In this document: piece by piece, positions 2,486 through 20,702 of the stretch | Layout of the letters: every line of letters begins with the position of its first letter | How positions within the stretch are numbered: position 1 is the first letter of the stretch | From: a virus | Virus record (IMG/VR): IMGVR_UViG_3300030107_000331 | Location: 1 to 30,266 of that record | Length of the DNA: 30,266 nt | Strand: one strand, 5' to 3' | The notes under the pieces: model-generated | Databases searched by the model: none | What the model saw: the letters and a program-made list of their open reading frames with translations, nothing else | What the model was told of the DNA's origin: nothing | Made by a program: the position numbers and the translations under genes

Positions 2486-2947
2486 TTGATTGATCCAGTA
2501 ACTGCAATTTCTGCAGCTAGTGCTGCATTTGGAATTTTAAAACAAGGAATATCTGTTGGAAAAGACCTTCAAGATATGGGTGGTCAGTTATCTCAATGGG
2601 CAGGAGCAATAGCAGATTTAGATTTTGCTGATCGTCAATGTCAAAAACCTCCTTGGTATAAAGCATTAGGTGGTGGTGTTGAAGCACAAGCAATGGAAAT
2701 ATTTGCAGCTAAAACTAAAGCTGCAGCAATGAGAAAAGAATTAAAAAGTTATATTTCTGCAATGTATGGGCCTAGTAAATGGGAAGAAATACTAGAAATA
2801 GAAGCACAATTAAGAAAACAAAAACGAGAACACGAGCACAGACAAATGGAAATTAAACAGGCAATAATAGAGTGGACTGCAGGTGGAATATTGTTTGCCA
2901 TATGTATGACAGCTTTGCTTGGTTTGATATGGATAGGAACTAAATAA
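2486..2947 (+). CDS. Phage protein with coiled coil and C-terminal membrane segment
   Basis: 153 aa starting at a TTG codon with AGGGGAG about nine bases upstream; no ATG gives a plausible longer form. The N-terminus (MIDPVTAISAASAAFGILKQGI) is Ala-rich and amphipathic, the centre (about 85-125) is a charged coiled coil, and residues about 133-150 form a membrane helix. This arrangement is frequent in proteins found beside internal virion proteins of marine podoviruses, so a role in the tail or ejection complex is suggested. It ends in TAATG, sharing one base with the next start, which implies translational coupling. Function is not otherwise known to me. Confidence 0.75.
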   Translation: MIDPVTAISAASAAFGILKQGISVGKDLQDMGGQLSQWAGAIADLDFADRQCQKPPWYKALGGGVEAQAMEIFAAKTKAAAMRKELKSYISAMYGPSKWEEILEIEAQLRKQKREHEHRQMEIKQAIIEWTAGGILFAICMTALLGLIWIGTK

Positions 2948-5900
2948 TGATACAATTTAAAGGATTTAAACCTCAAGCTATGCAACGTATCGCTGGCACT
3001 CTAGGGTATCAAGGAGACATGGAAGGTTTTAAAGATTACCTAGATCAAAATCCTGACAAGATGCAACAGATGGGTATGTATCAACAAAAAGCTCTTGAAA
3101 TGGTTAATGGTGGTATGGTTCAATACTTAGCTAATGGTGGTTCTCCTTCTTCTTCAGTTGATCCTGCTACAGGTGCGGCAGTTGATCCTGTTACAGGAAT
3201 TCCAATTACATCTGCAGAACAAATGTCAGAAGATCAAACTGTTCAACCAGCAGCACCACAACCAACAGCACCTGAACCTGCACCACAGCCAGAAACAACA
3301 CCTGTAACACAATTTGATCCTCGTGATGCAATTTCTGATCCAGCTATACAGCCTTTTACACCAACTCAACCTGATCTTAGTACAACTTTTAAACCAATGA
3401 CAAAAGATGAAATTCTTGTTGAACGGTATGGTTGGACTATGGGAGCAGATGGTATAGCAACTCCACCTACAACTCAACAGCCAACAGAACCTTTACCTAG
3501 AGAAGATACTATAGAAAGAGGAATACCATCTCAACCACCAGAGCCTATTGGTCGAAGACCTGCTCCCACCGATCCTTTACCTGATGATTTTGACCCTGAA
3601 CCTTTACCTGATTATGATCCAGCGTCAGGCCCACCAGAACCTACTAGTTTTATAAATCCTGTAACAGGAGAACCAGAAGTAGACATAAACCTTAGTGGTC
3701 GCACATGGGGTGATTTAACATGGGCAGCACATTCAGATAAAGGTATTAATATGCTACTGCAGTCTGGTAAATTACCTGCTGATCCTAGTACATATGAAGT
3801 ATCTGGTGGAAGAGAAAATTGGATATTTACTTTTCCAAATGGTGCTAAAACTGTAGTTAATAGAGCAAGACAAAGTAATGCTGAAGCAACATTAAAATCT
3901 GAAATAGTACCTGTTATAAACAAATTAAAAGAAACTCCAACATATAAACAATTTCAAAAAGAAGAAGACATTTATCGTGACTATCTTGGCAAAGGAACCA
4001 CAGAAGATGTAATTAGAGACTTAGAAAATATTGAAACCGAATATGGTAAAGCCAATGACAGTGTACAACAACAACAAATAGAACTTGAAAGACTAAAAAA
4101 ACTAGCTGAAGATAACCCAGATAATCCATACTATACCGATCTTGTAAATAATAAAGTAGAAGAACTTGCAGATAGTATGGAGCGTGTTAACGATTTACAA
4201 CCTGCATATATTTCTGCCCGAAGAACAGTTAAAGATATAACTAAATCTCGCTTTGAAGACCCTTCAGAATTTATAACTGAAGAATTGGGTACTAAAGCAG
4301 TTGCTGCAAAAACAGAAATGACAGATGAACAAGACATTGCTGAAGGCACAGGACGATTAACTAGCGTAGGACAAGGCACAACAACAAGAGCTGATGCTTT
4401 TGATGCAGATACAGCAGATACTGCTAGAGCTTTTGGTGTAAGGCCAGATAAAGTAACTGATACAGCAGAGGAAAAATTAAAAACATTAGATGCACAAACA
4501 CAAGAAGACCTTACACGAGAAGTAGAGGCACAAACAGGAACTATAAGACCTGAAGGTATAGCTGATGAAGCTATTAAAATAGGTTTAGATCGTATTGAAC
4601 GTGCAGTTAATCCTACAGATTTAGAAGTTACAAAAAATCAACTTGCAGAAGTTAAAGGTAAAGAGTTAAAATCAATAGAAGCTAACATTTCTATATCTGA
4701 TAGACTAAAAAAGATTGTAGCTCAAACAAGTACAGTTGATCCTAAAGAACTACCACCACCTGCTAAGATTTCAGACAGTATAATGCGAAGTGTACAGTCA
4801 TTAAAAGAAACTGATCCTAGCCTGTCAGAAGAAACTACAAATTACATAGCTGCAAAAATGGAAGCATTTACTGTAGATGCTGGTACACTTGCAGTGGCAA
4901 TGCAAGGTGAAGTTAGAGCACAAGCAACTGTACAAGGCCAACTCTCTAGTCTTATGAAAAGTTTTGACAATGGTACTCCTGCATGGGCTGCAGGGGCTAT
5001 ACGTGCAGCTAACCAAGCTATGTTATCTCGTGGTATGGGAGCCTCTTCTATGGCTGCTGAAGCTATTGTGCAAGCTGCTATGGAAAGTGCCTTACCCATT
5101 GCACAACAAGATGCACAAATATTTGCAGCAATGGACATGGCTAATTTAGAGAATAGACAAAAGGTGTCTTTAACTAATGCTGCTGCACAACAAGGTTTAT
5201 CGTTGCAGAATTTAAGCAACGAACAACAGATGAACCTGCAAAATAGTGTGCAATCATTTGACCTACAGAAAGTTAATTTATCTAACAGGCAAAGCGTAGA
5301 GTTAGCTAATGCACAAATTAGAACTAGCTTACAAGGTAAAGTGTTAGACAATACACAACAGTCTAATATTATAACTGCAGCTAGGTACGCTGAACAAGCT
5401 AACCTAAACTTAAATAATAAACAACAAGCTGTTTTACAAGATAATGTAGGTGAACTACAAACTAACTTAGCTGATGCCAGTGCAAGACAACAATCTTATA
5501 TTACCAGCGCTAATCTTGCACAAGCTTTACAAGGTCAAGTATTAACTAACGATCAACAAGTAGCTATTGGTAATGCTGCACGTTATTCTGATGCAGCTAA
5601 TCTTAACTTTACTTCAGATCAACAAGAAGTTTTACATAACTCTTCATTGATGCAGACTATTGGATTAGCTGAACTTAATGCTACGCAAGCAACTACACTA
5701 CAAAATGCAGCAAACTTTGCATCTATGGATATGGCTGAACTTACTAATCAGCAACAAGCACAAGTTCTTAATGCACAAAACTTTTTACAACTTGACTTAG
5801 CTAATCTAAGTAATGAGCAACAAGTAGCTATATTTAAAGCACAAGCTATTCAACAAACTCTTCTATCTGATCAAGCATCTGTAAATGCATCTAGGCAATT

Positions 5901-6432
5901 CAATGCTACAACACAAACACAAGTAGATCAGTTTAATGTTAATTTAAAAACACAAGTTGAACAGTTTAATCAAGCTCAAAAAACTGCTATATCACAGTTT
6001 AATGCTGGACAAGCTGATGCTATGGAACAATTTAATGTTTCACAATCTAATGCAGCAGATCAGTTTAATGCACAGAATGAATTAGTTATAGCACAATCTA
6101 ATGCTACATGGCGTAGAGAAGTAGCAGCCGCAGAAACAGCCGCACAAAATAGAATGAATGAAATAAATGCTAAAGCTGCTCTTGACATGCAAGCTAAAGC
6201 ATATGATAATATGTGGCAACATTATGGCGATCAAATGGATAATGCATATAAATCTTATGAAAATGAAGAAGATCGTGCAAGTGCATATGCTATAGCTCAA
6301 TTAGAATCTGATACTGATTTAGCTCAACAAGAAGCAGCACTTGATGCAAGTGCCTCTGCATCATTAGGTGGTCTTGCGGCAACGTTACTTACAGGTGATC
6401 TTTCTAGCGGTATACTTGGTGGAATATTTTAA
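2947..6432 (+). CDS. Large repeat-rich virion protein (1161 aa) with long hendecad coiled coil
   Basis: The N-terminal 50 residues are a compact helical domain (FKGFKPQAMQRIAGTLGYQG). Residues about 60-235 are Pro/Thr/Gln-rich and probably disordered. Residues about 300-730 are mixed helical, acidic and Lys-rich. Residues 734-975 are eleven consecutive 22-residue units of the form LxNxQQ...L.NA, and residues 976-1052 are seven 11-residue units ending in QFN (QSN in the last). A Gly/Ala-rich hydrophobic tail (SLGGLAATLLTG...GILGGIF) closes the protein. The size and position among tail genes suggest an internal virion (ejection) protein or a tail rod. The family is not recognised by name. The start shares one base with the preceding stop. 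Minus-strand ORFs within it are shadows. Confidence 0.85.
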   Translation: MIQFKGFKPQAMQRIAGTLGYQGDMEGFKDYLDQNPDKMQQMGMYQQKALEMVNGGMVQYLANGGSPSSSVDPATGAAVDPVTGIPITSAEQMSEDQTVQPAAPQPTAPEPAPQPETTPVTQFDPRDAISDPAIQPFTPTQPDLSTTFKPMTKDEILVERYGWTMGADGIATPPTTQQPTEPLPREDTIERGIPSQPPEPIGRRPAPTDPLPDDFDPEPLPDYDPASGPPEPTSFINPVTGEPEVDINLSGRTWGDLTWAAHSDKGINMLLQSGKLPADPSTYEVSGGRENWIFTFPNGAKTVVNRARQSNAEATLKSEIVPVINKLKETPTYKQFQKEEDIYRDYLGKGTTEDVIRDLENIETEYGKANDSVQQQQIELERLKKLAEDNPDNPYYTDLVNNKVEELADSMERVNDLQPAYISARRTVKDITKSRFEDPSEFITEELGTKAVAAKTEMTDEQDIAEGTGRLTSVGQGTTTRADAFDADTADTARAFGVRPDKVTDTAEEKLKTLDAQTQEDLTREVEAQTGTIRPEGIADEAIKIGLDRIERAVNPTDLEVTKNQLAEVKGKELKSIEANISISDRLKKIVAQTSTVDPKELPPPAKISDSIMRSVQSLKETDPSLSEETTNYIAAKMEAFTVDAGTLAVAMQGEVRAQATVQGQLSSLMKSFDNGTPAWAAGAIRAANQAMLSRGMGASSMAAEAIVQAAMESALPIAQQDAQIFAAMDMANLENRQKVSLTNAAAQQGLSLQNLSNEQQMNLQNSVQSFDLQKVNLSNRQSVELANAQIRTSLQGKVLDNTQQSNIITAARYAEQANLNLNNKQQAVLQDNVGELQTNLADASARQQSYITSANLAQALQGQVLTNDQQVAIGNAARYSDAANLNFTSDQQEVLHNSSLMQTIGLAELNATQATTLQNAANFASMDMAELTNQQQAQVLNAQNFLQLDLANLSNEQQVAIFKAQAIQQTLLSDQASVNASRQFNATTQTQVDQFNVNLKTQVEQFNQAQKTAISQFNAGQADAMEQFNVSQSNAADQFNAQNELVIAQSNATWRREVAAAETAAQNRMNEINAKAALDMQAKAYDNMWQHYGDQMDNAYKSYENEEDRASAYAIAQLESDTDLAQQEAALDASASASLGGLAATLLTGDLSSGILGGIF
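5146..6102 (+). repeat. Tandem 22-residue (11 copies) and 11-residue (7 copies) coding repeats
   Basis: Counting codons, bases 5146-5871 encode exactly eleven 22-residue units (for example LSNEQQMNLQNSVQSFDLQKVN) without a single insertion or deletion. They pass in register into seven 11-residue units at 5872-6102. In the latter, the CAA/CAG of QFN recurs every 33 bases at 5896, 5929, 5962, 5995, 6028 and 6061. Copies differ in DNA sequence while keeping length, so selection on protein periodicity maintains them. An 11-residue period corresponds to three helical turns and is typical of right-handed or straight coiled coils. Confidence 0.9.
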
Positions 6433-6442
6433 ATAGGAGAAT

Positions 6443-6664
6443 ATGATGGAAACTAATCCAGCTAAAAGAGTTTATATAAACTATATGAACAATAGAATAT
6501 CAAGTGCTAATAAACCTGCAGAACCTAAACCTAGAGGTATCATGGGTATGTCTCGTACACAACCTGAACAACAAAAGAAACCACAACAACCTATGGAAAG
6601 AGCACAAGAAATGTTTAATCAGATACGTGATCAAAGAAAGAAAATGAGCAATGGAAGAGCCTAA
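6443..6664 (+). CDS. Small basic, Gln/Pro-rich phage protein
   Basis: 73 aa (or 72 if the second ATG at 6446 is used; that one lies a better six bases from AGGAG, the first only three). It is basic and low in complexity in the middle (QPEQQKKPQQPME), with a helical basic C-terminus (MFNQIRDQRKKMSNGRA). It sits between two virion genes and overlaps the next by 14 nt. A scaffold, DNA-binding or linker role is conceivable; I do not recognise it. Confidence 0.65.
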   Translation: MMETNPAKRVYINYMNNRISSANKPAEPKPRGIMGMSRTQPEQQKKPQQPMERAQEMFNQIRDQRKKMSNGRA

Positions 6665-7175
6665 CTTTGAAAGACATATACCAGGCCAAAGTTTAACTAG
6701 TGAACTAGGCCAGTATCCTTGGCAAAGACCTGCACGATATACCACTGTAGATGACGCAATGGATTTTTATGCTAAACGTATAATGAACCCAGTGTTTCGT
6801 GATCAAATAGCTGAGACTATGGAGCTTGGTGTACCTCTTACATCTATTGCAAATGCTTTGCAAGGTAATGGAGTTATGATGGGCTTACATACTATTGATG
6901 TAGGTGTTCTTATATTGCCAGTGATTATGGAAATGTTAGCTTATGTAGGTGACGAAGAAGGTGTTGATTATGTTATGGGTACAGAGTTAGAAGAACCTGA
7001 TGAAGATAAGTTTAGAGATTCTACTATAGCTTTAGCTATGAAGAAGGTTAAGTCTAAGATGGAAGCTGCAGGTGATGCACCTATGGAAGACACAGAGCCT
7101 ATGATGGATGAAGAACCTGCAGAGGTGGAGCCTACAGATACGCCCCCTACAGGCTTGATGGCAAGGAGAGTTTAA
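6651..7175 (+). CDS. Conserved phage virion-region protein, 174 aa
   Basis: It starts inside the preceding gene, without a strong Shine-Dalgarno, so translation probably depends on coupling. The N-terminus (HIPGQSLTSELGQYPWQRPARYTTVDDAM) resembles a motif in structural-region proteins of marine phages as I recall them. Residues about 40-105 are helical with a hydrophobic stretch (GLHTIDVGVLILPVIMEMLAYV) that could be buried or membrane-associated. Residues about 110-170 are strongly acidic and Pro-rich, so probably disordered. The gene ends one base before the next start. No function can be assigned. Confidence 0.75.
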   Translation: MEEPNFERHIPGQSLTSELGQYPWQRPARYTTVDDAMDFYAKRIMNPVFRDQIAETMELGVPLTSIANALQGNGVMMGLHTIDVGVLILPVIMEMLAYVGDEEGVDYVMGTELEEPDEDKFRDSTIALAMKKVKSKMEAAGDAPMEDTEPMMDEEPAEVEPTDTPPTGLMARRV

Positions 7176-7176
7176 T

Positions 7177-8457
7177 ATGGCATTTAATTTTTTGCAGTTT
7201 GCAGGTGGGTTTGCAGATGTTGTTGTAGAAAAAGTAAAAGCTGAAGAAGCGCAAGCTCGTGAAGACGAGTCATGGGATAGACGATTTCAAAAACAACAGG
7301 ACGCTATCAACGCTAGAACTCGTGGTCAAGCAAGACGTGATAGGGAAAAAGCTGCAGAGGAAATGTTAGGTGAATTACTTTCGTTGGGATACACAGAGGA
7401 AGAAGCAAATTATGCTGTATCTAGTGGAAAAGGAACATATAATATTTGGAAAAAATTTGGATTGGACGCTGTAACGAAAGGTGTTACAGGTAGTAGTCTA
7501 CTTAACGCACATGACAAGTTAAAACAACCTCAACCTCGAACTCGCTACAAGATAGGGGAGGAAATAATAAACGATGCTCAAAAAACTCTTGAAGGAACTA
7601 ACTCACCACAAATTATACCTACTACTCTTGCACCTTTTTCTTTTAATCCAAAGTCTGTAGCTGCTTTGTACACACCACTTGATGATACTGACATTAGTTT
7701 GGATATGCAACTTTCTAACAATACACAACGACAGTTAAAATTAATTCAAGATACTAATGCTCCTGATTATGATAATAAAATAAAAGCGTTAAGAGAAGAA
7801 GAAACTTTTTTGTTAAATCAAATTGGTAAGTTAGCTGATACAAAAAGAAAAGAGTCAAATACTAATCAACCAGTTAATGTAACAGAACATAATACTTTAA
7901 ATAATATTATAGGTAAAAATCATCTTTACGCTATTCGAAGAGCAGGTTTTAGAGTTGATGCTGAAACACAATTTATGGAGGCTTTTGAAGGCAAAGAAGG
8001 AAGAGGTTTTTCTGCTCAACTAGAATCTGTTGACCTTATGGAGAAAACAATATCATCTCTCGGTGATTTTGCTGTTGACAGATTAGCCGCAGAAAAAGTA
8101 GTTGTTCTTAAAGGATTAGAAAGACATGGAAAAAGTGAGTACTATAAATCTATAACTCCTTCAGTAGATAGTAATGGCGTTGTACAGAAAGATAATAATG
8201 GACAATTTAAAATGCAAGGAAAACCATTACAAAAGTTTGATAGTTTTACAGATTTTAATAATGCTATTGTAGCAGGTGGAATGATAAAAATTGGAGAACC
8301 TGTTTTAGTGCCAAACGCAAATGGTACTGGTTATATAATAAGTATATTTACTAATGTTCTAAATAAAAATGCATTTCCTATGTTTGAAGGTGTTGATCCT
8401 ATAACCCTACCTGTATATTCTTTTACTATTCCATCATTAATTGAAGGTGGAAATTAA
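7177..8457 (+). CDS. Putative internal virion / tail protein, 426 aa
   Basis: The ATG has AAGGAGAG upstream. The first about 90 residues form a highly charged helix (DESWDRRFQKQQDAINARTRGQARRDREKAAEEM), followed by mixed helical sequence and, from about residue 300, a beta-prone domain. No catalytic motif, signal peptide or membrane span is visible. It lies between a small acidic virion-region protein and the 1242-aa protein, three bases before the latter, so it probably belongs to the same internal or tail complex. I do not recognise the family. Confidence 0.75.
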   Translation: MAFNFLQFAGGFADVVVEKVKAEEAQAREDESWDRRFQKQQDAINARTRGQARRDREKAAEEMLGELLSLGYTEEEANYAVSSGKGTYNIWKKFGLDAVTKGVTGSSLLNAHDKLKQPQPRTRYKIGEEIINDAQKTLEGTNSPQIIPTTLAPFSFNPKSVAALYTPLDDTDISLDMQLSNNTQRQLKLIQDTNAPDYDNKIKALREEETFLLNQIGKLADTKRKESNTNQPVNVTEHNTLNNIIGKNHLYAIRRAGFRVDAETQFMEAFEGKEGRGFSAQLESVDLMEKTISSLGDFAVDRLAAEKVVVLKGLERHGKSEYYKSITPSVDSNGVVQKDNNGQFKMQGKPLQKFDSFTDFNNAIVAGGMIKIGEPVLVPNANGTGYIISIFTNVLNKNAFPMFEGVDPITLPVYSFTIPSLIEGGN

Positions 8458-8460
8458 AAT

Positions 8461-11400
8461 ATGGCTGAATTAAATACAAATGATTGGGCTGCACAATTAG
8501 ATAAAAATTTAAATTTAATTGGTGGTTCTGAAACTGTAGATATCCCATCTATTATACCTAATGATTGGGCTGCACAATTAGATAAAAATTTAAATGTTGA
8601 AGAAAACGTTGTTGAAGAAGACATTGTTGAAGAAGACATTGATACTTTTACTAGTGCAAGTATGATACCATCTGCTGATGATTACATAGAAGTTGAAGAA
8701 CCTGTAGAAAAATATGACGGTACTATTTCTGGTTTTGATAGAACAAAAAGAGCATGGGATGAATGGACTGAATCATTAGCACCCATAGTAGATGAAAATA
8801 ATAATATTATAACAAATGAAGCTATGGAAAAAATAGGTCAAGAACTTTCTAATGCTCTTATAGAAACAGACAATAGTGGTAGGTCTAAACTTACTCCTAG
8901 TCGTGCTCCTACTCCCGATGAAGTACTTTTAGCAAAAGCTTTAGATTCAGGTGGTAGTACAGGTACAAAAGTTCTTTTAAATGTAGCTGGCGCATTATCT
9001 GTAGGTGGTAATGTTGTATTAGATGTAGTAGAGGATACACTAGAAAGAGGATCACAACAAAAAATTGCTGGTGGTGCATTAAACTTTGTTGCTAAATTAG
9101 CTACAGAGTTAAGAAACTTTGGTGGTTATGGTAGATATAAAAGTGATAAAGATATAGAAGTTAATCCTAAACAATGGATAGATGCTTTAGCTGAGGGGTC
9201 TATAAATGCGCTTGAGTTTAGTGAACAACTACCTGCTTTAGGTGCAGTATCTACATTATTAAGTATTAGGTCTTTACGTGCTGTTAACCAAGCTAAAGAA
9301 GGTTCTAAAGTATATAATGCTAAGTTAAAAAATTTAGAGGAAGCTAGACGTAATAACTATGAAGGTGCTAGGCTTGCTACATCTGAAGCAAAAATAGAAG
9401 CAAAAGCTATTGCAACAAAAATAGCTGAAGATAACTTAGAACTACGAGATGAAATAATTTTAAAGTTTGAATCAAATCTTGATGGTAGAAAAATATCTAA
9501 AGAAAAAGATGGTCATTTAGTAATAGACTATGACTTAGCTACTGTAGAAGGCAAAAAAATAATACGAGAAGACATTAAAATTGTAAAAACAGCAGAAGGA
9601 AATGTAGCAGAACTTGATCCCCTTGCAAGTGTAATAGGCACAGAAGGTGGCATTATATCTCCGATACTTAACCCTGAAAAATTAAACAGTTTGGTTGCTG
9701 TTGTAGCTGAATACAAAAAGAAAATGCAAACTGCAGGTAAACCAGATGCATTTAAACCTAAAAATGCTGAACGTATACGTAAATTAAATGCTAAAAAGAA
9801 ACTTGGTAATCTTAGTCAAGCAGAAACTGAAGAACTAAAAGCCTTAAATAAAGCCAACAAAGGCCCAATGAAAATTTTGTTAGATATAACTATAATGCAA
9901 GATTTAGAGGCAACGTCAGAGTTAATTGATATTTTAAATAAATATGATTTATCTTTAGAGGAAATGATTCTTAGTAGTGTGGGTTCTTTTTCTGAAGCTG
10001 GTACTGTTTTACAAATAGCTCGTCAATTAAATAGAGTAAGACCAGACGCAGACATTGATGCAGAAAAAACTAAAAAATTATTAGAAGCAGAAGCTGGTAT
10101 TGCTAATGCTTCACAAAGATTAGAGAATGTACGTAGAGGTATGTTGGTAAGTAAGTTTGCTACTGCTGCACGTAACTTTGAATCTACTGCTGCACGTATG
10201 CCAATGGAAAGTCTTATGAATGTAATTGATGAGGTTGTATATTCATTTAAAAAACCTATTAAAGGTGGTATAATAGGACCAGATGTGGAAGGAGGTTTTG
10301 TTGGTGCAACAAAAACACTTACCAGAAAAGAAACATGGAGAGATAGTTTTAAAGCACATAAGTATGCTTTTAGTAGACCTGATATAGCTAATGGGTATAT
10401 GCGTCTTATGTTAGAACAACCAGAGTTTGCAACTTATTACAGTAAAATGTATGAAAACATAAATGAAATACAAAAAGCTACAGGTAGGGGTGTTGGTGGT
10501 ACTGTAGATACAACTATGTCTTTCTTAGAAGATGTAACTTCTTTAGTTAATACTGCTAACAGGTGGCAAGAAAGTGTTAGTAGAAATGCTTTTGCTTTAG
10601 CTGACCTTGAAAGATTAGTTAAAAGAGAATACAATATAGATTTAATAGATGCTCTTAATGAAGGTAAGCTAAAAGATTTAATGAATGATGCCTCAACAGT
10701 TAAACCTGAAGGAGCAAGATCATTTCATGTTTTGATGGCAGAAGCTACAAATCGTGCATTGACAGCTACTTATGCCAATCAACCAGAAGGAAAAATATTT
10801 AAATATTTAACAAACTTTTTAACTACCCAAAAACTAGGTGGTGTTATACCACTAACTGTTGCAGTAGAGTTTCCTAGATTTATGTTTTCTAGTATGGAAT
10901 TTATTGGTCAGTCTTCTTTTGGTGCTGCTATGCCAATGCTTAAAAAATCAATTGGTCTACGTAAGGATGGGTTTAGTGCAAAAGAACAACGTGCTATTCA
11001 AAGAAATCTTGTAGGTGCTTCCTTTATAGGTGCAGCGTATATGTATCGCAGTAGTGAAAATGCACCTGAACAATTTGATAATATTAATGTTTCTGGAAAA
11101 GATATTGATATTACTGCTCAATTTCCTTTTAAACAGTTTTTTTATATAGGAGAAACTTTAAAAAGATTAAAAGAAGGAACTTTTGATCAATGGTGGGATG
11201 CTAAAGTTTTTGCTGAAACATTTGTTGGTACTGCATTTAGAACTGGTACTGGCAATATATTTATAGAAGAACTTGCCTCTATTGCTGATGGCTTAGATGT
11301 TAGTGGTGGTGTTAAAGCTGCAGAAATAGTTGGTGAAAGTGTTAGCAATTATATATGGGGTTATTTTAATTTTTTTACACAAATACCTGACTTACAAAGA

Positions 11401-12189
11401 GCTAGACAAGAACCAATGCCAGAGGCATTTTCAATAGCTACTGGACTATACCCAAGACCACTTGAATACAGAAAAGATATTTCCATAAGTGTACCTAAAG
11501 GACCATTTGAAGCAGGTTTTAAGGAATTAGGTAGAGGTGGTGTGCGTGGTGGTTTAACTATTTCTGCAACAGAAGAAGCTGCTCTTCCAATACAATCAGA
11601 AGTATTTCAAAGCCAAGGAACAAGACCCGATCCTTTATGGAAAACATTTTTAGGTCTTTCTGTAAAAGATGAAGCAGACGAAAATGAAAAATTTGTAGGT
11701 CGTTTGGGTATACCTTTATGGAAGGTAAGGAGTAACTCTGATGTTGCTGCTGTAAAAGATTTTGAAAACAAACAACTTTCTTTATTTATGCCAATAGTAG
11801 TTGATGTAATAAAAGCTAGAGAACAAGACTTTAAAATGCAATATTGGCAAGAAAGTACTCAAGAAGCTAGAGATAAAATAACAGTAGAAAATTTTGTTAA
11901 CAGAAAATCTAGGTCTATGTTTGAGGCATTAGTAAGAACAAAAAAAGCAACGTTAAAAGCTACATCTTCTGCTGTAGCAGATAAATACTCCGCAGCAATG
12001 ATAGAGTATAACAAGATACCTAGATCATATAGAAAACAAGCTATTATAAATTATATGTTAAATAAAAATGGTGCATCCCCAGACTTGGGGGATGTAACTG
12101 TAATAACAGAGCTTACTATAAATGCTAAACTCCTTAAAAAAACAGATACAAGTATAGCTAGAGATGCTGCAGGACAAAGAAAAAATTAA
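8461..12189 (+). CDS. Very large internal virion / ejection-type protein (1242 aa)
   Basis: 1242 aa and last gene of the plus-strand block. Residues 7-18 and 34-45 are an identical peptide, NDWAAQLDKNLN, followed by an acidic repeat (VEEDIVEEDI). Residues about 150-550 are Ala-rich and helical with many charged residues; a longer helical section (about 690-860) contains moderately hydrophobic stretches such as LGGVIPLTVAVEFPRFMFSSM and NLVGASFIGAAYMY. Proteins of this size and composition at the end of podovirus structural operons are usually internal core or DNA-ejection proteins; this is inference from size, position and composition. No lytic transglycosylase signature was found. The stop lies at the base of the terminator stem. 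Confidence 0.8.
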   Translation: MAELNTNDWAAQLDKNLNLIGGSETVDIPSIIPNDWAAQLDKNLNVEENVVEEDIVEEDIDTFTSASMIPSADDYIEVEEPVEKYDGTISGFDRTKRAWDEWTESLAPIVDENNNIITNEAMEKIGQELSNALIETDNSGRSKLTPSRAPTPDEVLLAKALDSGGSTGTKVLLNVAGALSVGGNVVLDVVEDTLERGSQQKIAGGALNFVAKLATELRNFGGYGRYKSDKDIEVNPKQWIDALAEGSINALEFSEQLPALGAVSTLLSIRSLRAVNQAKEGSKVYNAKLKNLEEARRNNYEGARLATSEAKIEAKAIATKIAEDNLELRDEIILKFESNLDGRKISKEKDGHLVIDYDLATVEGKKIIREDIKIVKTAEGNVAELDPLASVIGTEGGIISPILNPEKLNSLVAVVAEYKKKMQTAGKPDAFKPKNAERIRKLNAKKKLGNLSQAETEELKALNKANKGPMKILLDITIMQDLEATSELIDILNKYDLSLEEMILSSVGSFSEAGTVLQIARQLNRVRPDADIDAEKTKKLLEAEAGIANASQRLENVRRGMLVSKFATAARNFESTAARMPMESLMNVIDEVVYSFKKPIKGGIIGPDVEGGFVGATKTLTRKETWRDSFKAHKYAFSRPDIANGYMRLMLEQPEFATYYSKMYENINEIQKATGRGVGGTVDTTMSFLEDVTSLVNTANRWQESVSRNAFALADLERLVKREYNIDLIDALNEGKLKDLMNDASTVKPEGARSFHVLMAEATNRALTATYANQPEGKIFKYLTNFLTTQKLGGVIPLTVAVEFPRFMFSSMEFIGQSSFGAAMPMLKKSIGLRKDGFSAKEQRAIQRNLVGASFIGAAYMYRSSENAPEQFDNINVSGKDIDITAQFPFKQFFYIGETLKRLKEGTFDQWWDAKVFAETFVGTAFRTGTGNIFIEELASIADGLDVSGGVKAAEIVGESVSNYIWGYFNFFTQIPDLQRARQEPMPEAFSIATGLYPRPLEYRKDISISVPKGPFEAGFKELGRGGVRGGLTISATEEAALPIQSEVFQSQGTRPDPLWKTFLGLSVKDEADENEKFVGRLGIPLWKVRSNSDVAAVKDFENKQLSLFMPIVVDVIKAREQDFKMQYWQESTQEARDKITVENFVNRKSRSMFEALVRTKKATLKATSSAVADKYSAAMIEYNKIPRSYRKQAIINYMLNKNGASPDLGDVTVITELTINAKLLKKTDTSIARDAAGQRKN
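8479..8595 (+). repeat. Perfect 36-bp direct repeat within the coding sequence
   Basis: Bases 8479-8514 and 8560-8595 are identical, 81 bases (27 codons) apart and in the same frame. Both encode NDWAAQLDKNLN. The identity holds at every codon position, so this is a recent duplication or the product of gene conversion rather than convergent protein evolution. Confidence 0.9.
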
Positions 12190-18659: not shown

Positions 18660-20702
18660 TCATGCTACGTCTTTTGTGTCAAGCCAATTCGGGCCTAACT
18701 TTGCTTCTAATAGCAAAGGAATATTAAAGTTAATGTTCCAACGCTTGTTAATTATTTCAATCAGCTTACAGTTAGCTGCTGATATTACTTGTAATACTTT
18801 GTCCTTCTCTTGTGGATGCACATCTATTACAATCGAATCATGCACCGTGTTTACTACACAACTGCGTAGCTTGTTTGCCGTTAGTAACTTATCTATATAT
18901 ATCAGAGATATAGGTACAATGTCAGCAGTTGCAAACGATTGTACAGGATAATTTTTAATCTGTGTGAAATATGTCACACCTCCATACCTTCGCCTAACTA
19001 CATCGGGGAATGAGAACTCACGCCCTGATGGTGTTGTGATCTTGCTAGTGTTGAGTGCCTCTTTAGCCAAAGCCTCATGCCACTTGGCAATGCCATGATA
19101 CTTCTTGGTAAACTGTTGGTAGTACGCAGCCTCTGCTTTTGATCTACCAAAGCCACTTGCCCCATACAAAGGAGCAAAGGTGTGTGACTTGGCTTCCTGT
19201 CTGGATATAGGTTGACCTGCATCAGAGATAACCTTGGCGGTATAACTGTGTACGTCAAAGCCAGTGGTAACTTCCTCAATGGCAGTCTTATCTTGTGACA
19301 GGAACGCAGCAACTCTGAACTCTAACTGTGCAAAGTCAGCTTCCATAACTGACCCACCTTCCCAACGTGAGATGAATACTTTCTTAACAGGAAACGTACC
19401 GCCTCGTGGCATGTTCTGCATATTAGGATCAGCACCTGACAGTCTGCCTGTACCAGTGCGGTGTTGCAGTAACCTAACGTGTAGCCTACCGTCACTCTTA
19501 ACATGCGTTGCTATACCCTCTACAAAGCTACTGAGATATGTCTCTACTGCTGATAACCTACGCACCTTCTGCAGGAAGGACTCCGCTTCTTTCATACCTC
19601 TGGATCGTGCAATACCCTCAAGGAATGTCAGGTTGTCCTTACCTGTACCAAAGCCATTGGCACTAACCCATTTAGCTGTAGGTGGATGAAATTTGAGTCC
19701 AGCCACCTGTTGTTTGTTCTCGTACAGGTAACCGTGTGCGTTGCATGTAGTGCAGTTGTTAGGTTTAGCAAAACGAGTGCCATCTATCTTGGTGCGATAT
19801 ACCTTACCTATGCCGTTGCAATGATGACATTGATATGCTCTTTGTTTATACAACTTAGTGCTATGTAAGTTGACTGTGCTTTTGTAGTCTGCATCTGACA
19901 TGCGTTCCTCAAATAGATCAGGCCATATCTTCTTGTCATCAGGCTTACGACTGTAGATAACCCAAGATAGTTGTTCTGGACTGTTGAGGTTGATAGGTCT
20001 GTCACCCATAAGGTCAGCTACCTGTTCCTCAAGGGCAATGGTAAGTGTTCTGCGTTCTGACTCAAACTCATCACGCACTTGTAGCAATGCGTCCATGTCC
20101 ACTTGAAACCCTCTTTGGTAGATACGTGCCAAGTGAATAGCCAGTTGATTAGTCAGCCTCAGTGTTCCTTCCAGTGTACTGCATTCCTCGTAGGATGCCA
20201 CCAAAACATTATACAGTTGTTGTGTAGCATGTAGGTCATGCGACAGATACTCTGACAGTTCAGCATGAGGTATGTCTCTGACAGATGTACCTTTACTAAA
20301 GTGTTCCTTCAATGTGTCTTGCTTCTTGGTGTCAAGCTCGTACCGTTCTGCACATGCCTCAAGAGACAGAGGTTGTTTCTGTCCACGTTGCAGCACATAC
20401 TCACCTAGCATGGTGTCAAATATTTCACCATCATAGGTAAAACCTGACTCCCATAGCCACAGTAAATCGTGGGCGGCATTGTGCATTATAAGAAGATGAG
20501 CAGCGTCAAGTTTGTATTGCACTAAACGCCGCCCATCTGTAGTGGGTGCTTGCTCTGAGTGATCGAATGTTAAAAGGTCTTCGTTACCAAGATCATCTAG
20601 CATACCCACCATAACTAATGTATTGGTTGGTTCAAACGGATCAAGATGCATCTTATTACTCCGCTTGGTTACTGTGTTCTCTACGTCAAGGGTCAGTTTC
20701 AT
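18660..20702 (-). CDS. polA: Family A DNA polymerase with DnaJ-type zinc-finger insertion
   Basis: 680 aa, replicative polymerase. The 3'-5' exonuclease is complete: D6/E8 (LDVEN), N75-D79 (HNAAHD) and Y152-D156 (YLSHD). Between the exonuclease and polymerase domains are C292/C295 (CHHCNGIG) and C317/C320 (CTTCNAHG), a DnaJ central-domain-like zinc finger. Polymerase motif A is DFAQLEFR (D456), motif B R501, K505, F509 and Y513 (RQEAKSHTFAPLYG), motif C HDS (621-623). F509 corresponds to E. coli Phe762. AGGAG precedes the ATG. I recall this domain order from the SAR116 phage HMO-2011. Confidence 0.95.
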   Translation of the reverse strand: MKLTLDVENTVTKRSNKMHLDPFEPTNTLVMVGMLDDLGNEDLLTFDHSEQAPTTDGRRLVQYKLDAAHLLIMHNAAHDLLWLWESGFTYDGEIFDTMLGEYVLQRGQKQPLSLEACAERYELDTKKQDTLKEHFSKGTSVRDIPHAELSEYLSHDLHATQQLYNVLVASYEECSTLEGTLRLTNQLAIHLARIYQRGFQVDMDALLQVRDEFESERRTLTIALEEQVADLMGDRPINLNSPEQLSWVIYSRKPDDKKIWPDLFEERMSDADYKSTVNLHSTKLYKQRAYQCHHCNGIGKVYRTKIDGTRFAKPNNCTTCNAHGYLYENKQQVAGLKFHPPTAKWVSANGFGTGKDNLTFLEGIARSRGMKEAESFLQKVRRLSAVETYLSSFVEGIATHVKSDGRLHVRLLQHRTGTGRLSGADPNMQNMPRGGTFPVKKVFISRWEGGSVMEADFAQLEFRVAAFLSQDKTAIEEVTTGFDVHSYTAKVISDAGQPISRQEAKSHTFAPLYGASGFGRSKAEAAYYQQFTKKYHGIAKWHEALAKEALNTSKITTPSGREFSFPDVVRRRYGGVTYFTQIKNYPVQSFATADIVPISLIYIDKLLTANKLRSCVVNTVHDSIVIDVHPQEKDKVLQVISAANCKLIEIINKRWNINFNIPLLLEAKLGPNWLDTKDVA

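Follow-up and report, generated by a model that had tools for sequence, protein, structure and literature searches.

Helical stalks of variable length that carry an exchangeable C-terminal module are known from the P22 tail needle gp26 and from fibres of the S74 type, and S74 domains themselves are known mainly from trimeric fibres. Repeats of 22 residues with an 11-residue sub-period occur in the exchangeable apolipoproteins and in other helical proteins composed of 11- and 22-mers. The gp14-, gp15- and gp16-like ejection proteins of podoviruses measure about 180-240, 431-982 and 609-1337 aa, respectively, and lysin modules are swapped among members of these proteins (PMC8954989). The DNA polymerase A of HMO-2011-type podoviruses contains the CXXCXGXG (partial DnaJ) motif twice (PMC6918029).

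The array gene and its neighbourhood

We analysed a stretch of viral DNA of 30,266 nucleotides (IMG/VR: IMGVR_UViG_3300030107_000331), referred to here as the window. Judged by its sequence, the window is an HMO-2011-type podovirus. Its polymerase A (18660-20702) contains CHHCNGIG, an exact CXXCXGXG motif, and CTTCNAHG, the second motif with one substitution. Genes resembling ribonucleotide reductase, MazG, ThyX and tyrosine integrase were recognised by eye, on the basis of their translations and of where they lie in HMO-2011. A comparison of ORFs showed that the gene order agrees with HMO-2011 and CRP-1: tail genes are followed by a protein with a long repeat array (the array protein), by a small, a middle-sized and a very large protein, and then by a replication module on the opposite strand. 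The parts of the array gene and the genes downstream of it are as follows.

2947..6432, + strand: gene of the array protein, 1161 aa (ORF; full-length homologues in IMG/VR and homologues in phages)
2947..3150, + strand: N-terminal motif GFKPxAMxRIAxxLGYxGDM...GGMVxxxxxGG, residues 1-68, kept in the alignment with HMO-2011 and other homologues
3151..4866, + strand: variable linker, residues 69-640, Pro/Thr-rich and then acidic (composition; alignment gaps)
4867..5145, + strand: conserved pre-array domain ATVQGQL...PAWAAGA...ESALPIAQQDAQ, residues 641-733 (left anchor, 391 ORFs)
5146..5871, + strand: eleven 22-mers, residues 734-975 (translation, lag statistics, one predicted AlphaFold2 helix-turn per unit)
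5872..6102, + strand: seven 11-mers with a consensus ending in QFN, residues 976-1052 (near-fixed length in homologues; long helix predicted by AlphaFold2)
6103..6429, + strand: C-terminal region, residues 1053-1161, with a conserved WRR...helix and then a Gly-rich apolar tail (alignment, homologue comparison)
6443..6664, + strand: small ORF, 73 aa; small genes of similar size are annotated here in several relatives
6651..7175, + strand: 174-aa protein (PIPGxSLT...PWxxPP), gp14-like from size and order only
7177..8457, + strand: 426-aa protein, gp15-like from size and order only
8461..12189, + strand: 1242-aa protein, gp16-like (IVP-D-like) from size and order only

By position and size, the 174-, 426- and 1242-aa proteins resemble a gp14/15/16-like ejection cassette, the first two lying slightly under the published ranges for gp14- and gp15-like proteins (PMC8954989). 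As with gp14, gp15 and gp16 of T7 and gp7, gp20 and gp16 of P22, they form a late cluster of helical proteins ordered small, middle-sized, very large. Unlike the T7 and P22 trios, the cluster has an extra protein ahead of the trio, which bears a variable array of 22- and 11-residue repeats, and sequence similarity between the systems was not detectable. When the cassette was compared by hhalign with T7 gp13-16 and the virion proteins of LUZ24, probabilities were <=0.4% throughout, in what is a weak test of single sequences against shallow profiles, and a profile-based equation of the cassette with these proteins was abandoned for want of any match. With its 1161 aa, the array protein also differs from T7 gp14, which has about 200 aa and several predicted membrane helices; hhalign found no match here either.

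Searches of the PDB with the 426- and 1242-aa proteins revealed zero matches. The profile of the 174-aa protein weakly matched designed PPR repeats (~5e-5 over 49 positions), which is possibly a mere helix-turn-helix resemblance. Near the N-terminus of the 1242-aa protein (window 8470-8641), TRF detected NDWAAQLDKNLN twice, followed by an acidic repeat, which may be a docking motif. A protein truncated at the window start (2-973) contains ~45-residue repeats (ATRGVFAGG...TIDYITIGSTGNATDFGDL) and has the look of a propeller-like tail protein or fibre; in MW202701, a WD40 repeat protein is annotated slightly upstream of the array gene.

Register and copy number of the array

In the frame of the ATG at 2947, positions 5146-6102 translate into eleven units of 22 residues and then seven units of 11 residues with zero slippage, as stated in a preliminary description of this DNA. 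Comparison with shuffled sequences confirmed this arrangement. Self-identity at lag 22 was 0.25 in the 22-mer block versus 0.10 after shuffling (0/2000 shuffles reached 0.25), and self-identity at lag 11 was 0.39 in the 11-mer block, again versus 0.10 (0/2000 reached 0.39). The additional claim that each 22-mer is a pair of 11-mers holds weakly: identity at lag 11 within the 22-mer block was 0.147, compared with 0.100 in shuffled sequence (26/2000 reached 0.147). At the DNA level, TRF did not detect the array repeat in the window and identity at unit lags was 0.43-0.48, which rules out a recent tandem expansion of the window array; since its DNA shows no detectable repeat, the array is old.

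A tblastn search with the array protein hit 27 phage records, among them HMO-2011, CRP roseophages, pelagiphages, Vibrio phage CHOED and phages of Aeromonas, Pseudoalteromonas, Rhizobium and Sinorhizobium, and IMG/VR yielded hundreds of homologues. The carriers of the array protein are marine phages with short tails, which form a very common group. Array lengths were measured as distances between three anchor profiles, one ahead of the array, one where the 22-mers meet the 11-mers and one behind the 11-mers. Both segments were whole multiples of 11 residues in 322/322 distinct homologues, with 20 different lengths of the 22-mer block and 8 of the 11-mer block, whereas the C-terminal tails of these proteins occupy every residue class mod 11. 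Ten further measurable arrays from bacterial and archaeal genome contigs of a separate collection all consist of whole elevens. The HMO-2011 homologue (L023 14001-16121) ends in another C-terminal module, which starts with CWVAREVYG; patterns of this type were found in 7/313 homologues.

The spacing of the repeats is conserved and the number of 22-mers differs between homologues, from 1 to 34. This stepwise variation in length, which was missed in the preliminary description, is a more striking fact than the array itself. With few exceptions the 22-mer counts are 1, 2, 3, 4, 5.5, 6, 9, 11, 14, 16, 19, 21, 26, 31 and 34, and the usual step is five units, or 110 residues. The 11-mer block is near-constant (seven units in 243 and nine in 70 of the 322 homologues), and the counts of the 22-mers follow it: proteins with seven 11-mers have mainly 6, 11, 16, 21, 26 or 31 22-mers, plus one clade at 3, and those with nine have mostly 9, 14, 19 or 34, or 5.5. 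In a tree built from the anchors (317 tips, several deep nodes poorly supported), 43 changes in count are required, and 25 of these are multiples of five, a plain count with no statistical test attached. One array (L059; 11.5 units) has an 11-residue half unit inserted near its end, with two consecutive C-type halves.

Comparisons of close pairs and of units within arrays revealed the same step. Between L069 (26 units) and L127 (21 units), the alignment has a single clean gap of 110 residues at a protein identity of 93% elsewhere, and the junction resembles a fusion of two super-units. Other close pairs differ by 110, 220 or 330 residues, and also by 11, 66 and 187. In one lineage the similarity of units was 2.9 at lag 5 versus 0.7-1.3 at lags that are not multiples of 5; in the other it was 1.6 (lag 5) to 2.2 (lag 10) versus 0.3-0.8. 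Long arrays showed similarity far above other lags at 5, 10 and 15 in the first lineage and at 5 and 10 in the second. The sequences of the super-units differ between the two lineages, and the phase preference across them is weak.

Predicted fold of the repeats

The input for AlphaFold2 was window residues 641-1161, aligned with 41 homologues. In the resulting model each 22-mer is a helix of ~16 residues followed by a turn, helix starts are 22 residues apart, pLDDT is mostly 73-87 across the array middle, and the 11-mers form a long helix at low confidence. In 97% of 1488 unique 22-mers, position 2 is occupied by a residue of the helix N-cap type (Ser, Thr, Asp or Asn); at its counterpart, position 13, such a residue was found in just 22%. 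Overall, helix-turn repeats are somewhat favoured for the window lineage. Against them stand the AlphaFold2 prediction for a 14-unit member of the other, divergent lineage, which has continuous helices of 122 and 168 residues (mean pLDDT 52), and the lack of a fold match in the PDB. In that lineage, the share of units with an N-cap residue at position 2 falls to 70%.

Pfam searches with the array protein and the array revealed zero family matches, and a sequence-profile search of the PDB with the array gave nothing significant. The PDB fold search with the array model returned none at E<=0.001 (best E 0.41), and a search of viral predicted structures matched sequence homologues only. The previous statement that a named family with this array is not known in podoviruses agrees with these searches. 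From the apolipoproteins the array is set apart by its Gln/Asn-rich composition, the absence of Pro punctuation and of a Pfam match, and the 110-residue super-period. With alpha-solenoids and designed helical repeats of the PDB the window model shares short helices and turns at fixed spacing; unlike these it has a single helix per repeat, odd copy-number steps and no better fold match than the one given above. Two-helix solenoid repeats of the HEAT/TPR-like kind were rejected, because a step of five units, an odd number, or a half unit would break their pairing.

The preliminary description had proposed an uninterrupted hendecad coil of about 47 nm, long enough to serve as a ruler, a tail rod or an ejected tube. 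All 319 residues would then form one straight or right-handed helix within an oligomeric rod or tube, tuned by phases of 11 residues, which we regard as unlikely, though it has several results on its side. Indels occur solely in multiples of 11, including single 11-residue insertions that correspond to three helix turns; such strict steps would be required to keep a helix in phase, so that a continuous helix stays compatible with the register. Gly and Pro are rare in the array, the 11-mer block is modelled as a single long helix and is borderline at period 3.67 (its apolar power was reached by 26/500 shuffles), and the long helices of the divergent lineage, modelled at low confidence, fit as well. 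Against a continuous coil, the window model is broken at every 22-mer, N-cap residues recur at one position per 22, and the 3.67 period is not significant in the window 22-mer block (reached by 81/500 shuffles); its share in the family profile is 0.06.

The length of the array is also hard to reconcile with a ruler. As a straight helix at 0.15 nm per residue, the longest arrays (31 x 22 + 7 x 11 and 34 x 22 + 9 x 11 residues) would extend over ~114-127 nm and could not fit straight inside a head, a typical podovirus head being about 60 nm; a head measurement for the HMO-2011-type group was not found in the literature. Among phages of host strain FZCC0040, the count is 3 units in CRP-3 and CRP-235 and 5.5 in CRP-207, and for host strain FZCC0023 the counts are 6 in CRP-1 and 5.5 in CRP-9. 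A ruler is unlikely because the count ranges from 1 to 34, differs for the same strain, and would make the longest straight helices exceed the typical head. Given this variation within a strain, the envelope does not determine array length, and the unit count does not track how long the gp15-like protein is (Spearman -0.23, p 0.35, n 18); an envelope or capsid ruler was rejected on both grounds. Of the proposed coiled-coil ruler, the analysis supports a real helical array of 11- and 22-mers in conserved register, and supports neither the single 47-nm coil nor the ruler.

Candidate virion roles and the five-unit step

The window array protein has no Peptidase_S74 domain (Pfam) and matches no PHROG family. 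Among its relatives, phrog_6121 ('virion structural protein') matches the CRP-3, CRP-738 and CRP-235 homologues, and phrog_4287 ('DNA ejection protein') matches those of CRP-738 and CRP-235, covering the S74-like C-terminus only. All three homologues carry a C-terminal Peptidase_S74, which takes the place of the C-terminal region of the array protein in this one clade. The CRP-235 homologue (L039 2273-4804) combines this domain with a LysM and with endolysin/transglycosylase PHROG matches at its N-terminus. The earlier designation as a virion protein is probable, with indirect support from gene position and from the PHROG matches of homologues; virion proteomics was not found for any member in a literature search. 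A C-terminal membrane anchor was ruled out by the weakly apolar tail, as the best 19-residue apolar window exceeded 1.6 in only 2/313 homologues (median best-19 score 0.84).

Because of the gene order and the LysM, Peptidase_S74 and PHROG matches in homologues, we consider the array protein more likely to be an internal virion protein that is ejected than a fibre on the outside. The best account we can offer for the observed register, copy-number series, super-period and gene order, and one we hold tentatively, is that the array protein is a fourth, repeat-bearing protein beside the ejection cassette, most likely an ejected internal protein with a modular helical-repeat array. It is consistent with this that the gene directly precedes the 174-, 426- and 1242-aa proteins, which are gp14/15/16-like in order and near in size. 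The restriction of phrog_4287 to the S74-like end and the missing similarity of the cassette to T7 or LUZ24 proteins in hhalign speak against ejection.

As an ejected protein, the array protein would leave the virion with or ahead of the DNA. Each 22-mer is predicted to be an N-capped helix of ~16 residues with a short turn, and the 11-mers a long helix of conserved length behind them. The array would grow and shrink by whole helical repeats, preferably by five 22-mers (110 residues), and such a block may be one turn of a superhelix or else the recombination unit of the array. After passage through the narrow tail, the chain of short helices would re-form beyond it and give the DNA-delivery structure an extensible segment. 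A more specific version, to which we assign a small likelihood, makes the array a single-chain helical tube, i.e. a new solenoid with five helices per superhelical turn, as part of a gene-quantised DNA-delivery channel; evolution would then gain and lose whole turns of 110 residues, so that the capped ends hold their rotational register. Should the five-unit step prove to be one turn of a superhelix, the helical-repeat fold would have no counterpart among the solved structures searched. Such arrays probably have a role in the delivery of phage DNA into the cell, and the natural series of 1-34 repeats, with 110-residue steps and a fixed 11-mer block, provides a ready-made length series with which one can ask whether the delivery structure owes its length, mechanics or capacity to the length of the array.

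An external trimeric fibre or tail needle, with the array as stalk, the C-terminus as swappable tip and Peptidase_S74 as trimerisation chaperone, appears improbable. The S74 domains of the three isolate homologues, the variable C-terminal modules and the variable stalk length would suit it, and in the last two respects the array protein is like P22 gp26 and the S74 fibres. It is unlike them in its long variable N-terminal linker and in the place of its gene, which adjoins a cassette of large late proteins resembling ejection proteins, while the tail-fibre genes of relatives lie elsewhere, upstream. The LysM of one homologue and the name of the PHROG family with the S74-like end, DNA ejection protein, also argue against a fibre.

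The five-unit step was compared with the DNA of the arrays. In the longest, recently expanded arrays, windows of 66 nt are up to 98% identical at lag 330, and unequal recombination in steps of 330 bp is therefore expected there. These longest arrays (L184, L185, L191 and L297) have 31 and 34 units; the 31-unit arrays contain near-identical super-units, which points to recent expansion. In arrays of 11, 14 and 16 units, DNA identity at lag 330 was the same as, or barely above, that at other lags, and five-unit differences were found among these arrays too. The occurrence of five-unit steps despite the lack of a lag-330 excess leans towards a structural preference; exchange between phages with different array lengths could be an alternative source of five-unit pairs. 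That the array is a largely passive spacer, a near-neutral helical tether whose five-unit steps are the mere footprint of super-unit recombination, is the reading to which we give least credence: it would account for counts of 1 to 34, for the differing counts within one host strain, for the near-identical super-units of the longest arrays and for the fusion-like junction of L069 and L127, but not readily for five-unit steps in arrays without clear lag-330 identity, for a super-period in two lineages or for a register that is never broken.
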